Positions 20,905 through 27,388 of a stretch of DNA of 40,541 nt are shown here, piece by piece (positions within the stretch are counted from its first letter, which is position 1; each line of letters opens with the position of its first letter). Made by a program: the position numbers and the translations under genes. Source of the stretch: Archaeoglobi archaeon (lineage in GTDB: Archaea; Halobacteriota; Archaeoglobi; Archaeoglobales; Archaeoglobaceae); the NCBI GenBank assembly GCA_029259415.1, contig JAPDIW010000022.1:1-40541 (forward strand), written 5' to 3'. Under the pieces are notes generated by a model, which was given only the letters and a program-made list of their open reading frames with translations, did not search any database and was not told the origin of the DNA.

Positions 20905-21177
20905 GTGAGAGCGAAGGTAGATAAGTACGGTAGAATATTGCTACCAAAAGACATCAGAGACGAACTCGGGCTGCGTGAAAATGATGAGCTAACTATCGAA
21001 GTTAGGGAAGATGAGATAGTAATCAGAGTTCTAAGAGACAACCTCGAAAAGAGAGTGGACGAGCTTGTTGAATACTTGAGAAGCCACTCGCCAAAACCCT
21101 TTGTTGCTGAGGTAGAGGAGGGAGAAAAGTGGGTTACGAGGAAACACGCTCTGGAAAAGATCGGATTGAAGGAGTAA
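20905..21177 (+). CDS. AbrB/SpoVT-type antitoxin
   Basis: 90 residues. The N-terminal ~45 residues form a swapped-hairpin AbrB/MazE DNA-binding domain (VDKYGRILLPKDIRDELGLR then ELTIEV and EIVIRV strands). The charged helical C-terminal half would wrap the toxin. It starts at GTG 20905 with leaderless spacing to the TATA box. The PIN-domain gene starts inside its 3' end, the usual order of antitoxin first. It probably neutralises the toxin and represses the operon. Confidence 0.86.
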   Translation: MRAKVDKYGRILLPKDIRDELGLRENDELTIEVREDEIVIRVLRDNLEKRVDELVEYLRSHSPKPFVAEVEEGEKWVTRKHALEKIGLKE

Positions 21178-21626
21178 TTGATATTGGACCAGTTGTTCTG
21201 TCTCACTTCGAAAATCCAGCTATGGATGCGGCGCTTGAATTTCTTTCGGAGGTTCTTAAGTGGAATAGGAAGTGCATAATCCCGACGTCAACGATTCTGG
21301 GAGCCTACCACATTCTAACGAGGTATCTGAGGGTGGAGAAGGTATCTGCATATGAAGCTCTTACGAGAACTCTGAAAACCCACTCTCCGGCATTTTACGA
21401 GAACATCAGCGTTGAATATGTTCTGAATTCGCTGACAAACGCTCTGGGTTACAACATCGAGTCATGGGACGGGTACATTGTTTCACTCGCCAAAAAGTTC
21501 AGGGCTGCTGTGTATACCACCGACCTAAACCTGATACGGAGGGTGAAAGATGTTCCAGTGGTGAATCCAATTCCAGATGAAATCTTCAACGAGTACAACG
21601 AATGGCTGAAGGAGCGCTTGAAGTAG
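21129..21626 (+). CDS. vapC: VapC-type PIN-domain ribonuclease toxin
   Basis: 165 residues. PIN-domain features are the first acidic residue in VIDIGPVV (Asp18), a helical core, and the later acidic residues in SWDGYIVSLA and YTTDLNL, which together bind Mg2+ for RNA cleavage. The start used is GTG 21129, which overlaps the antitoxin gene by 49 bp. No other standard start lies closer to the first strand, so the N-terminus is uncertain by about 15 residues. Partnering with an AbrB-type antitoxin is a common archaeal VapBC arrangement. Confidence 0.82.
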   Translation: MGYEETRSGKDRIEGVIDIGPVVLSHFENPAMDAALEFLSEVLKWNRKCIIPTSTILGAYHILTRYLRVEKVSAYEALTRTLKTHSPAFYENISVEYVLNSLTNALGYNIESWDGYIVSLAKKFRAAVYTTDLNLIRRVKDVPVVNPIPDEIFNEYNEWLKERLK

Positions 21627-21904: not shown

Positions 21905-22138
21905 TTATGTGTAAACATGGGCGATCATCTGCCAGCTTATGTAGTACAGAATTGCCAGCAGTATTATTGCCAGGATTATGCTCCCTGCGACCAACTTCTT
22001 CTCTACTGGAAGGATTTCCTCTTTGCCCACGATGACTCTCTCAGTCCCACATTTGGCACATCTGAGTATTTCCCTATCACCCTCTGAGACTATTTCAGCC
22101 ATTTCTCCACAGTTCGGACATGGCTCTTTTCTCGCCAT
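21905..22138 (-). CDS. Zinc-ribbon protein with C-terminal membrane helix
   Basis: 77 residues. An N-terminal zinc ribbon (CPNCGE ... CAKCGT) is followed by one strongly hydrophobic helix of ~22 residues (about 46-68) and a short tail. It should sit at the membrane with the ribbon on one face. ATG 22138 is chosen because GAGGTGA (22144-22150) is 5 bp upstream and overlaps the transporter stop; in-frame ATGs at 22147 and 22144 are less well placed. Tight linkage suggests an accessory subunit or regulator of the transporter (inference). Confidence 0.72.
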   Translation of the reverse strand: MARKEPCPNCGEMAEIVSEGDREILRCAKCGTERVIVGKEEILPVEKKLVAGSIILAIILLAILYYISWQMIAHVYT

Positions 22139-22148
22139 TTTCATCACC

Positions 22149-23627
22149 TCACTTCAGGAACAGTAGGTGCACATCGTGGAAGAACAGCCAGCTTATCAGC
22201 AGTCCGATCCAGATGATGAAGCCGAAGAGGCAGATTAGGTACACCAGTGCCAGTCTGCCGATACCTTCTCTGCGTAACGTTGAGAAGTCTGAAATCAATC
22301 CGATGCTGAAGAAGGTCAGTGCGAAGAATATCCTTCTGAATCCGTTCATCTCACTGCTTACAGCGAGTTTCATCGGAGCAAGAGCCTGACTTACCTGATC
22401 CGGTGGTACACTCCCTGCGATTCCAGAGGCGAGGTAGAGTATTATCAGGAAGGTCAGGAAGTAACCAATGACGAACTTGGGGAATCTGTACCAGATTTCG
22501 AGCTTCTCCACCTTCTCTCCGGGCTTCCTCTCGATGTAGTAAACCCAGATCACCGCAAGGATGAACGCCCAGACACCGATGAAGATGTCAATGAATATCT
22601 TTGTGATGATAGCTGCATTCAGTATCCAGCCTTCAAGCGCCGCATATTCTGGGTGTAGTCCAGTAATCAAAGCATCAACGATTTCACCACTTGCCGCAGC
22701 AGCTCCATCTGTTTTTACCGCAAGACCCATCCAAGCTCCTGCAACCAGAGGCTGGTTCCAGAGTGTTTCAACGGCAAGGAAAGGTATGAACAGTAGCTCA
22801 ACGACCGCAAAGACAATGACAAGCGATGCAACCATAACTGGAACCACTGGCCTCGCCCTAATAGCACCACCAGTCGCTATGGCTGCTGAGACACCACAGA
22901 TTGAAATACCAGAAGCTAGCGGTGCAGCCCACTCTCTGCTGAGGCCGAAGTACCTCCTTGCAACCCAGTAAACCAGAGCCCAGTAGAGCAGATAAGCTTC
23001 AACGATAGCACAGAGACCTCTGAAGAGGAAGTTGTACAGTATTTCTGGTGGAACACTCGGTGCCTTCAGACCAACAACTGCACCGAGCAGCACGATAGCA
23101 GTCTTAATGAACCACTCAGGTTTTGCAGCTTCCTTTAACTGCTCTGCAAATCCCTTGGCAAAGTTCCCTATCAGAAGACCGAGAATCAGTGCCACGATGT
23201 AACCTGCTTCTCCAGTCATATGTAAAGACCACGGCAGGTTGTACGCTTCAGGCTTTGTTGCCGCAATCCATGCGTTATGTCCTATAACCCAGCAGATCCA
23301 TGTTAGGAAGAATATTACTGTAAACCCTGCTGCGAACCTGCCCACTTTCCATCCCATTGCTGCAGCTCCTATACTGGTCAGAATAAGTAGCACGATGTAT
23401 GTAACGATCCATGCGCCTATTGGTCCTAAGAACTCATAGTTTGCTGATGATGGAGCCATTGCTTTCGCTGGATCAACCCATACGTTGGCCTTCACGACCC
23501 ATCCCATGAGGTCGGTTCCGTATGCAGCCGCAAGGCAGAGGAAAAACAGCAGCATTCCTAGCCAGAAGGCCCACCAGTCCTCTTTCTTCCACAACGAAGA
23601 CCAGTCTATCCCTCTCTCTTCCGCCAT
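22149..23627 (-). CDS. YeiH/UPF0324-family putative sulfate exporter-like transporter, long form
   Basis: 492 residues with about 12 hydrophobic helices. The family core includes a GxSxCGxSAAIATGGAIRA-type stretch (SGISICGVSAAIAT near 245) and KTDGAAAASGEIVDAL near 305. It is longer than the ~330-residue standard form because of N-terminal and central extra helices. The family is annotated as putative sulfate exporter; relatives are linked to sulfonate or sulfur-oxyanion handling, but transport direction and substrate are not settled. ATG 23627 with GAGAGGTGG upstream is preferred over GTG 23636. It heads a three-gene unit and lies downstream of a regulator gene and a shorter paralogue. Confidence 0.8.
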   Translation of the reverse strand: MAEERGIDWSSLWKKEDWWAFWLGMLLFFLCLAAAYGTDLMGWVVKANVWVDPAKAMAPSSANYEFLGPIGAWIVTYIVLLILTSIGAAAMGWKVGRFAAGFTVIFFLTWICWVIGHNAWIAATKPEAYNLPWSLHMTGEAGYIVALILGLLIGNFAKGFAEQLKEAAKPEWFIKTAIVLLGAVVGLKAPSVPPEILYNFLFRGLCAIVEAYLLYWALVYWVARRYFGLSREWAAPLASGISICGVSAAIATGGAIRARPVVPVMVASLVIVFAVVELLFIPFLAVETLWNQPLVAGAWMGLAVKTDGAAAASGEIVDALITGLHPEYAALEGWILNAAIITKIFIDIFIGVWAFILAVIWVYYIERKPGEKVEKLEIWYRFPKFVIGYFLTFLIILYLASGIAGSVPPDQVSQALAPMKLAVSSEMNGFRRIFFALTFFSIGLISDFSTLRREGIGRLALVYLICLFGFIIWIGLLISWLFFHDVHLLFLK

Positions 23628-23732
23628 ACTAACCACCTCTCAACCACTACTCACCAGCCCAACTATATCCCACATTCATAATTTGAATTTTAACAAATAT
23701 TAGAATATCGTCAAAAAAACCGTCAAATAGTG

Positions 23733-25838
23733 TTAAGCAACCCTCATTATCTGTCTTCCATCTTCCGTGACCTCCAAAACCTTGAATCTACCATCTTTAA
23801 TAATTCTAATTAATCCTCTGTCTAATAGCTGTTGAACCCTTTTCTTTGCCGTGTTCCTGGTTATGCCAAAGTTATTCATTACATCCTTTATGGAAGGTCT
23901 CTCACCAATTTTGTTTTTGGAGTAAATGAACCTTAGCACATCGTATATCTCGTCCGGAATTTCGACTTTTCTGCTTTTTATTCCCCTGCACTCCATTTTT
24001 AGCAGCTCGAATTCCCTCTCACCAATCAACTCACTTTCCGAACAAACAATCAGAATTCCCTTGTTCAAAACGAAAAATACATCCTTGAGTCTCTGAATAA
24101 GCTCGTATACCTCCTCGAAATTTCTCTTTACCAGAAGATAGTCGAGGTCCAGCAGCACTGCATTTTTCCATCCCGGAAGGGACATGATTTCTCTGTATAT
24201 TTTTTCCGGATCGGGATCGAGAGTACCCTTCATCTTTCTGCTCGAAAGCATAATGTAGTTGTCCTCACAAACGCCGATATTCTCAGGATAGCGCCTGCTT
24301 ATCACTCTCCCTGTATAGCCGCACTTCACGAGGTCGTTGATTACGTCAACAGCCAGATCAAAGTTGTCAGCAAAGTAAATTCTGCCCCTCTCAACGTCGT
24401 ACTTGAACATCCTTTTCTCCGCTTCTCTTTCAGCACGTTTCTTCTCAGAAATATCCCTTGCAATAATGGATATTCCGGAAAGCTCCCCAAGCTCATCGAG
24501 GATTGGAGAGACGGTTATCTCAACGTCGATAACTGTGCCATCTTTTCTTAACCTCCTCGTCTCGAAGCTCAGACCGGAATCTCCCTCCCTTATCCGTCTT
24601 ATTATAAATTCTGTTTCGCCCTTGAGCTCTTCAGGAAGAAGTGCTGAGGCATCCATACCTATAGCCTCTTCTTTACTCCATCCGAACACCTTCTCTGCTG
24701 TTCTGTTCCAGCTGGTTATTATGCCTCTGACATCTACCGAATATATTGCATCATTGGAGTTTTCAACAATACTTGCAAGCTGCTGAAGCTCTTTCTGAAC
24801 CTCCAGAAGCTCTCTTGTTCTTTTCTCCAGCTCCTCCAGTGAGGTTTTGAGGTCAAGTTCTGCACGTTTTCTTTTTGTTATGTCTCTCATTATGGCAACG
24901 AAACCGACAACCTCTCCATTCGAGTCGTGAATGCTTGTGAGAGTCTGGTCGACAATTATTAGCTCTCCATCTTTCCTGATTCTCGGAGCTTCGATGTCCT
25001 TAACATGCCCTTCAACAACCGCCCTCTTGAAGTTCTCAGCACACTGTCTCCAGTGTTCCTTGGGCATCAGGAAATTCAGAGGCTTTCCAACTGCCTCCTC
25101 AGCAGTATAGCCGAACATCATCTCGGCTCCTTTGTTCCAGACGGTTATTCTGCTGTCAACGTCGAGGATAACTATAGCATCGACTGAGTGCTCAAGTATT
25201 TCTTTAAAGAAGGCAAGCTGCCGCTCAACCCTTTTCCTCTCTGACACATCTCGGGCAAGGCACCTGTAAATCCCCTCTTCCTTCTTTACCACAACTTCAA
25301 CGGTGGTGATTTTACCGTCTTTGATTACCTCATACTCGAATTTTCCTAATTCAAGTTTCTCTACGGGAAAGTTTTCAAGGACGTCTCCCACATACTTACC
25401 TTCCACATCTCCAAATTTTTCTTTGAAATTGTTGGTTGCGAAGACGATTCTGTGATTGCTGTCCAGCTCGAAAAGCCATCCATCCAGCTCCTCCATAACG
25501 CTTCTGAACCTCTTTTCGCTCTCTTCAAGCGATTCCTTTTCTTTTATCAGCTCTTCAATCATCCAGTTGAATGCAGAGGCAAGTTCTCCGAATTCATCAG
25601 ACGATTTGGGTGCTACTTTCCTCATTTCTCCTCTTACAGCACTCTGAAAAGCGTCTCTAAGCTCCTCAACCGGTTCGAGAATGCTGCCAGCGGAGAAGAG
25701 AGATATGATGAGAACAACGATCAAAACATAGGCATAGTACGAGGGGCTAACCCCTACTTCTACCAGTGAAATTCCGAGAACGAGGGAGATTGCAGATATA
25801 ATTGTAAAAAGCAGTACGAACCTGATAAACACCCTCAT
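23733..25838 (-). CDS. Membrane-anchored HAMP-PAS-PAS-PAS-DUF835-winged-helix regulator
   Basis: 701 residues. Domain order: two membrane helices (about 5-27 and 35-54), HAMP (~52-104), PAS1 (~108-200), PAS2 (~208-322), a coiled-coil linker (~325-360), PAS3 (~362-468), a DUF835 domain (~488-620, with YFADNFDLAVDVI and AVLLDLDYLLV) and a winged helix (~628-700, with IKDVMNNFGITRNTAKKRVQ). There is no histidine-kinase, receiver or cyclase domain. The wing sits at the C-terminus on the cytoplasmic side, so the protein looks like a one-component, membrane-tethered DNA-binding sensor. The start overlaps the upstream YeiH-type gene by ATGA, and a second YeiH-type gene lies 105 bp downstream. Ligand and targets are unknown. 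Confidence 0.85.
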   Translation of the reverse strand: MRVFIRFVLLFTIISAISLVLGISLVEVGVSPSYYAYVLIVVLIISLFSAGSILEPVEELRDAFQSAVRGEMRKVAPKSSDEFGELASAFNWMIEELIKEKESLEESEKRFRSVMEELDGWLFELDSNHRIVFATNNFKEKFGDVEGKYVGDVLENFPVEKLELGKFEYEVIKDGKITTVEVVVKKEEGIYRCLARDVSERKRVERQLAFFKEILEHSVDAIVILDVDSRITVWNKGAEMMFGYTAEEAVGKPLNFLMPKEHWRQCAENFKRAVVEGHVKDIEAPRIRKDGELIIVDQTLTSIHDSNGEVVGFVAIMRDITKRKRAELDLKTSLEELEKRTRELLEVQKELQQLASIVENSNDAIYSVDVRGIITSWNRTAEKVFGWSKEEAIGMDASALLPEELKGETEFIIRRIREGDSGLSFETRRLRKDGTVIDVEITVSPILDELGELSGISIIARDISEKKRAEREAEKRMFKYDVERGRIYFADNFDLAVDVINDLVKCGYTGRVISRRYPENIGVCEDNYIMLSSRKMKGTLDPDPEKIYREIMSLPGWKNAVLLDLDYLLVKRNFEEVYELIQRLKDVFFVLNKGILIVCSESELIGEREFELLKMECRGIKSRKVEIPDEIYDVLRFIYSKNKIGERPSIKDVMNNFGITRNTAKKRVQQLLDRGLIRIIKDGRFKVLEVTEDGRQIMRVA

Positions 25839-26821: not shown

Positions 26822-26843
26822 CTCTAAATAGTCTTCTCCAACA

Positions 26844-26853
26844 TATATAAAAT
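26844..26853 (-). promoter_or_regulatory. TATA box of the YeiH-regulator operon
   Basis: Minus-strand ATTTTATATA centred ~27 bp before ATG 26821. It lies back to back with the Lrp promoter, with only about 13 bp between the two boxes, so a protein bound here could affect both. Confidence 0.5.
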
Positions 26854-26866
26854 TTTGTAGGAGTAA

Positions 26867-26875
26867 TTTTAAATA
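26867..26875 (+). promoter_or_regulatory. TATA box of the lrp gene
   Basis: TTTTAAATA centred ~26 bp before GTG 26897. This is leaderless spacing. Confidence 0.5.
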
Positions 26876-26896
26876 CAATTACTTCGAAGCTGCAAC

Positions 26897-27388
26897 GTGG
26901 AGAGCGTTGAGCTTGAAGTTCTCAGGCTGCTTGAGGAAAATGCGAGGATGAAGGATGAGGAAATAGCCGAGGTTCTGGCCATTCCGGTAGACAGGGTTAG
27001 GGAGATAATAAAGAAATTCAAAGATGATGGAGTAATTCTGAAGTACAAGACAATCGTTGACTGGGAGAAGGTTCAGGAGGATTTCGTTTACGCACTCATA
27101 AACGTTAAGGTCTCCCTGACGAGGGAGAAAGGATACGATGACATTGCGAAGAGGATTGCGAAGTTCTCGGAAGTGCATGCTGTCAGACTTGTGAGCGGGG
27201 AGTACGACTTTCAGGTTGTTGTGAAAGGCAAAAGTTTGAAGGACATCGCATTTTTTGTCGCCGAAAAGATATCCACTATTCCTGAAGTCCGGGATACGTT
27301 CACACATTTCGTGCTAAGAACTTATAAAGAGGAAGGCGTAAACCTGTTTGAAGAAGAAGAAGACAGGAGGCTTGCCTTTGTCCCGTAG
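26897..27388 (+). CDS. Lrp/AsnC-family transcription regulator
   Basis: 163 residues. An N-terminal winged helix (about 1-50, with DEEIAEVLAIPVDRVREIIK) is joined to a RAM/AsnC ligand-binding domain (about 62-140, with VRLVSGEYDFQVVVKG). Family members bind amino acids or keto acids and control metabolic genes as dimers or octamers. It starts at GTG 26897 with leaderless spacing. The aminotransferase gene overlaps its 3' end, so the regulator probably responds to a substrate or product of that enzyme. It could also bind the divergent YeiH promoter. The acidic tail (EEEED) is unusual but minor. Confidence 0.9.
   Translation: MESVELEVLRLLEENARMKDEEIAEVLAIPVDRVREIIKKFKDDGVILKYKTIVDWEKVQEDFVYALINVKVSLTREKGYDDIAKRIAKFSEVHAVRLVSGEYDFQVVVKGKSLKDIAFFVAEKISTIPEVRDTFTHFVLRTYKEEGVNLFEEEEDRRLAFVP

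Follow-up and report, generated by a model that had tools for sequence, protein, structure and literature searches.

A probable membrane-tethered regulator dedicated to a YeiH transporter module in sulfite-respiring archaea

A gene for a membrane protein with an array of sensory domains lies between two transporter genes in a 40,541-nucleotide stretch of archaeal DNA (the window, by which we mean the whole stretch that was analysed), and the question it raises is how such a protein passes on its signal. The original prediction was that it carries the signal straight from membrane to DNA, as a tethered one-component regulator. The source genome, G000, comprises 1.94 Mb in 104 contigs, and the nearest to it among named records are Archaeoglobus MAGs. 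The genes concerned are these:

23733..25838, minus strand: the sensor, a predicted membrane-tethered regulator with two transmembrane helices, HAMP, three PAS domains, DUF835 and a winged helix
25835..26821, minus strand: yeiH1, YeiH family (TIGR00698, E 2e-120), overlapping the sensor start by 4 nt
22149..23636, minus strand: yeiH2, a long divergent PF03601 transporter (E 1.7e-22) in a conserved position
21905..22147, minus strand: a small protein of 80 aa with a zinc ribbon and one transmembrane segment, following yeiH2 and, in many cassettes, a recurrent partner of it

The ORF listing of the window gives the sensor as an intact frame of 701 aa with an ATG start. Its two hydrophobic segments, at about residues 3-26 and 36-55, correspond to two long N-terminal helices in a full-length structure model that is locally usable (pLDDT 79) and unreliable for domain packing (pTM 0.36). 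The outer loop between the transmembrane helices is about 10 residues or fewer, and the protein is thus a sensor without an extracytoplasmic sensor domain. Pfam places HAMP at residues 49-97 (E 7e-9) and PAS domains at 215-325 and 353-463 (PAS family E 3e-42), while the NCBIfam sensory_box model finds three PAS stretches; their chemistry was assessed by visual inspection alone. Neither HisKA, HATPase_c nor a receiver domain figures among the families that Pfam lists for the window protein or among those most often matched by 24 scanned homologues, all of which carry PAS and DUF835 and 20 of which carry HAMP. The protein therefore has neither the HisKA and HATPase_c pair of a sensor histidine kinase nor the REC domain of a response regulator. 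Thus the predicted domain order, from two membrane helices through HAMP, three PAS domains and DUF835 to a winged helix, is borne out by Pfam, NCBIfam and AlphaFold2, and so, within the families just named, is the predicted lack of a kinase or receiver.

The answer to our question turns on the C-terminal third of the protein, which we divide into two domains:

23991..24359, minus strand: DUF835 domain, residues 494-616 (PF05763; Foldseek matches to RecA, KaiC and FlaH)
23736..23954, minus strand: predicted C-terminal winged helix, about residues 629-701 (AlphaFold2, Foldseek and an AF1382 profile match)

A search with HMMs had been suggested as a check of both boundaries, and it delivered one of them: PF05763 passes its gathering threshold on the window protein (59.8 bits against a cut-off of 33.1, E 3e-16), whereas the several winged-helix models that match at 633-700 all fall under their Pfam cut-offs. 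Evidence for the wing comes instead from AlphaFold2. The model, which covers residues 480-701 and draws on 26 homologues, has a mean pLDDT of 88.5 and a terminal helix-helix-helix-strand-strand arrangement (residues 629-690) that is a canonical winged helix. Searched against the PDB with Foldseek, the first domain of this model retrieves RecA, KaiC and FlaH, and the second retrieves RbkR-DNA, MepR-DNA, IdeR-DNA and AF1382; a profile of the winged helix alone also matches AF1382 (E 1.4e-5). Among the homologues the predicted recognition helix (RNTxKK) hardly varies.

The original prediction treated DUF835 as a domain of unknown function, but it has already been recognised as a degenerate KaiC-like domain, listed as "inactivated KaiC" or iKaiC (PMC5847659). 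The aligned sequences show no P-loop motif. DUF835 is better described as degenerate KaiC/RecA-like, with a putative role in the sensor. Near its junction with the winged helix lies Cys617, a residue kept by 24 of 24 homologues and missing from five inspected DUF835 proteins that have no winged helix; as a hypothesis only, we put this cysteine forward as a candidate sensor residue. The source genome also holds two more weak DUF835 matches below the cut-off, in short ORFs at C24:8150-8371 (L002) and C40:12589-12780 (L003).

Of 57 Archaeoglobales genomes, 25 encode full-length homologues, 29 in all, and a scan of named genomes added four from Hydrothermarchaeota (one, L069, placed there by its sequence), for a total of 33. 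Among 394 genomes of the phylum, matches spanning both DUF835 and the winged helix occur in Archaeoglobales only, and the next-best matches, at 58 bits or less, either stop in or shortly after DUF835 or are limited to the winged helix. The surroundings of the gene are conserved as well. A YeiH-family (PF03601) gene adjoins the sensor in 31 of the 33 loci, with yeiH1 directly upstream on the same strand in 28 and yeiH2, of which there are two types, directly downstream in 26, so that the usual order is yeiH1-sensor-yeiH2. In the window there is a 4-base overlap between the yeiH1 stop and the ATG of the sensor (taking ATG 26821 as the yeiH1 start, where the listed ORF begins at TTG 26878), and yeiH2 begins 96 bp downstream, in agreement with the prediction of co-translation with one YeiH gene and a second one following. 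The same 4-nt overlap is present at most loci in both phyla, including all four in Hydrothermarchaeota. Because the start of the sensor gene overlaps the yeiH1 stop, this arrangement points to translational coupling of the two genes and possibly to a complex of their products. The survey of architecture and neighbours that had been proposed thus links the homologues to transporters, and the structure prediction has its wing; these were the two points on which the original prediction had staked itself.

Some further features of these loci deserve mention. In other cassettes an ORF similar to that of the small zinc-ribbon protein lies between yeiH2 and the TGAC site described below, and in L036 yeiH2 has the zinc ribbon fused to its N-terminus. 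This position and this fusion suggest that the small protein may be a subunit. The two sensors without an adjacent yeiH each have a TauE/SafE-family gene nearby; one of them, L085:4141-5462, has genes of the TauE/SafE family (sulfite exporter) and with a CGGC domain upstream. We considered the Lrp/AsnC gene at 26897-27388 as a member of the module and rejected it, since it stands beside the cassette in only four genomes, that of the window included. At 20905-21626 on the plus strand, a small AbrB-like gene overlaps a PIN-like gene, and by eye the two resemble a VapBC-type toxin-antitoxin pair.

If the protein acts on DNA, a binding site might be expected near the genes it accompanies. Comparison of the gaps between sensor and yeiH2 yielded a shared element, TGACANTNTTTGACNNTTTTNTTGACRAYAT, with three half-sites spaced about 10 and 12 bp apart. 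The window copy stands ahead of yeiH2, overlapping the stop codon of the sensor:

23705..23735, minus strand: candidate operator, three TGAC-type half-sites (TAAC/TGAC/TGAC) spaced 10 and 12 bp

Two regions had been singled out as likely DNA targets. One, 23,637-23,732, carries this candidate operator; in the other, 26,822-26,896, no TGAC repeats were seen. Searching with IUPAC patterns, we found the window site to be the sole match to the full pattern in G000 at up to three mismatches, with no second site that might indicate a wider regulon; a shorter two-repeat pattern gave two additional matches at three mismatches, the same number as its control. Across the 57 genomes, a strict pattern matched 15 times, once per genome and in 15 of 15 cases upstream of yeiH2, while the reversed control pattern gave no match. 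A relaxed count, allowing spacings of 9-11 and 11-13 bp that were picked after the sites had been seen, found at least 10 of 12 half-site positions upstream of yeiH2 in 27 of 27 cases in sensor-bearing genomes. In genomes without the sensor the region upstream of yeiH2 scores 8-9 of 12, like shuffled sequence, and the site is present in none of six. The association of site with sensor has a Fisher p of 9e-7 counted by genes and 0.003 in a hand-made genus-level collapse, values that the relatedness of the genomes renders optimistic, the first in particular. Some lineages have degenerate sites at 10 of 12 positions, and a few of these do not reach significance one by one (L045, L048, L049 and L052, with shuffle p between 0.055 and 0.14).

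Two sets of genomes bear on this association directly. In G040, a natural trans test, yeiH2 is on a different contig from the sensor, yet the site is kept in front of it, and the sensor's own 3' end has none. In genus g11, sensor and site occur together in G034, G036 and G037, and neither occurs in G035 or G038. G039, which is 76% complete, has the site and no sensor that we could find, and was left out of the site/sensor test. The TGAC positions are better kept across sites than the runs of T. By eye, a weak TATA-like element lies downstream of the repeats, with the third half-site close to it, at about the BRE position. We think it probable, from these sequence comparisons, that the triple TGAC element upstream of yeiH2 is an operator.

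One genus alone has similar repeats upstream of yeiH1 as well, and the clearest examples run in the opposite orientation. In other groups, without TGAC repeats at that position, yeiH1 is preceded by CACC(GC)AA and a T-rich, TATA-like stretch (L041-L043, L048, L049, L052, L068 and L070). Hydrothermarchaeota carry a two-repeat site after the sensor, followed by a 55-56-codon ORF and no full yeiH2. These ORFs are conserved (L068:7769, L069:5047, L070:5819 and L071:6378; EWSKLWNTEEWWAVW), resemble only the first residues of yeiH2 (W..LW..E.WWA.W) and carry no transporter, and may be either a yeiH2 remnant or a microprotein.

The genomes that carry the sensor share a link to sulfur. A gene for dissimilatory sulfite reductase, dsrA, is present in 33 of the 57 Archaeoglobales genomes (32 over the cut-off and one fragment) and in 24 of the 25 that bear the sensor. 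The p value is 1e-7, or 6e-6 when the count is restricted to genomes of at least 90% completeness. The exception is G004, whose lack of dsrA is possibly an assembly gap, given that its sensor is 97% identical to that of the window in the queried region. Three of the four sensor-bearing Hydrothermarchaeota have dsrA over the cut-off, and sulfite reduction has been attributed to this group (PMC6775978). In Salmonella, YeiH confers sulfite resistance under a sulfite-binding regulator (PMC12880088). Sulfite or a related sulfur oxyanion is the likeliest candidate for the species transported or sensed, and the cassette would probably serve as a sulfite/sulfate transport module. As originally suggested, the protein may sense the transported sulfur species or a redox state.

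The locus is also present in genome G001 (2,178,400 bp), which we take to be A. fulgidus DSM 4304. Its yeiH2 is split over two frames, as overlapping ORFs of 324 and 204 aa (L035:7546-9068, minus strand) that reflect either a real frameshift or an old sequencing error. By their order, the genes there would be AF1617 (zinc ribbon), AF1618-AF1619 (yeiH2), AF1620 (sensor) and AF1621 (yeiH1). Hocking et al. noted that the membrane proteins AF1617-AF1619, beside the PAS gene AF1620, are highly expressed, and suggested that there might be "an unknown regulatory complex" at this locus (PMC3949148).

Our conclusion from these results is that the sensor is probably a membrane-tethered one-component transcription regulator dedicated to the YeiH transporter module of sulfite-respiring archaea. 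The conserved cassette, the predicted wing and the repeat site at the yeiH2 promoter lend this reading strong support. The protein appears to bind the TGAC site, which occurs in two phyla, directly, and so to control the flanking transporter genes. Because only a very short outer loop connects the transmembrane helices, the signal would be read either within the membrane, where YeiH1 might supply it, or by the PAS domains on the cytoplasmic side. It would then pass through the HAMP and PAS stack to a probably inactive KaiC-like DUF835, which might position or oligomerise the winged helices on three roughly in-phase TGAC half-sites upstream of the weak TATA-like element, and the bound regulator would most likely activate yeiH2. 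Judging by the position of the site, we lean towards activation over repression. A fuller version, in which YeiH1 is a co-sensor, Cys617 a thiol switch for sulfite or sulfane sulfur and DUF835 an inactive KaiC-like oligomeriser, all acting from the membrane on the three in-phase half-sites, we regard as unlikely.

There are several other possible explanations for these observations. Many archaeal regulators repress by blocking TBP/TFB, and the sensor might likewise occupy the TGAC triplet until a sulfur signal frees it, the third half-site being near the TATA-like element at about the BRE position. We consider such repression of yeiH2 possible but doubtful, and its extension to yeiH1 in the one genus equally so: the sites lie upstream of the TATA-like element, not over or downstream of it, the element is itself weak, and in A. 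fulgidus the genes at the yeiH2 end are highly expressed (PMC3949148). The stretch could also be no operator at all and serve the yeiH1-sensor operon as a transcription terminator or 3' end signal, as its T-rich composition, its place after the sensor stop codon and its persistence in Hydrothermarchaeota without a full yeiH2 would allow. This is very unlikely, given the sites upstream of yeiH2 with no preceding sensor in G040 and G039, the bare sensor 3' end in G040, the repeats upstream of yeiH1 in one genus and the poorer conservation of the T-runs.

Two further alternatives were considered. Association of site and sensor is not binding, and many archaeal winged helices mediate protein contacts, so the site might serve another regulator while the sensor works by protein contact, its winged helix off this DNA. 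That site and sensor are gained and lost together in related genomes, even within genus g11, and that the predicted recognition helix is nearly invariant make this distinctly unlikely. Finally, the sensor might be an unusual kinase-like receptor set by a separate kinase or REC protein, since kinase-like proteins without an ATPase domain occur chiefly in Archaeoglobi and Methanomicrobia; those proteins, however, keep HisKA (PMC5847659), a domain that, like the receiver, is missing from the Pfam families of the window protein and from the ones its homologues match most often. We give this last possibility hardly any weight.

If the one-component reading is correct, it provides a named, testable regulator-operator-transporter module for sulfite-respiring archaea, bearing on how they control sulfur oxyanion transport. 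It would also make the role of DUF835/iKaiC testable, because the domain directly precedes a DNA-binding domain with a specific predicted site. In the literature searched we did not find this architecture, its fixed place between two YeiH paralogues or the predicted operator, although the tables of the census of transmembrane transcription regulators (TTRs) may list such proteins; a survey of sulfate transporters in sulfate reducers leaves YeiH unmentioned (PMC5840216).

Membrane one-component regulators are themselves a known kind, in archaea from ArnR (PMC6396743) and from the general TTR census of Demey et al. 2023 (PMC10269533). Like the TTRs, the sensor combines at least one predicted transmembrane region with a DNA-binding domain, here a predicted winged helix, in one polypeptide (PMC10269533); most TTRs, however, are single-pass, whereas the sensor has a very short outer loop and a C-terminal DNA-binding domain that follows HAMP, three PAS domains and DUF835. 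ArnR/ArnR1 of Sulfolobus acidocaldarius is likewise an archaeal membrane-bound one-component regulator with two transmembrane helices and a (putative) HAMP, and activates through cis boxes (PMC6396743). Its N-terminal HTH precedes C-terminal transmembrane helices, an order reversed in the sensor, which is not of the ArnR type; furthermore, ArnR lacks both PAS and DUF835, and its targets are archaellum and pili genes (PMC6396743). Archaeal DUF835/iKaiC proteins also join DUF835 to PAS or REC sensor domains (PF05763; PMC5847659), but the pairing of DUF835 with a winged helix is confined to Archaeoglobales among the 394 genomes of the phylum. The YeiE-YeiH system of Enterobacteria offers a dedicated regulator adjoining a YeiH gene, with a link to sulfite (PMC12880088), and the archaeal sensor shares this adjacency in 31 of 33 loci. 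YeiE, however, is a LysR-type protein that binds sulfite (PMC12880088), while the window protein has no LysR match in Pfam or NCBIfam; it is unrelated, a membrane protein with PAS, DUF835 and winged-helix domains, and it has two YeiH paralogues for neighbours.
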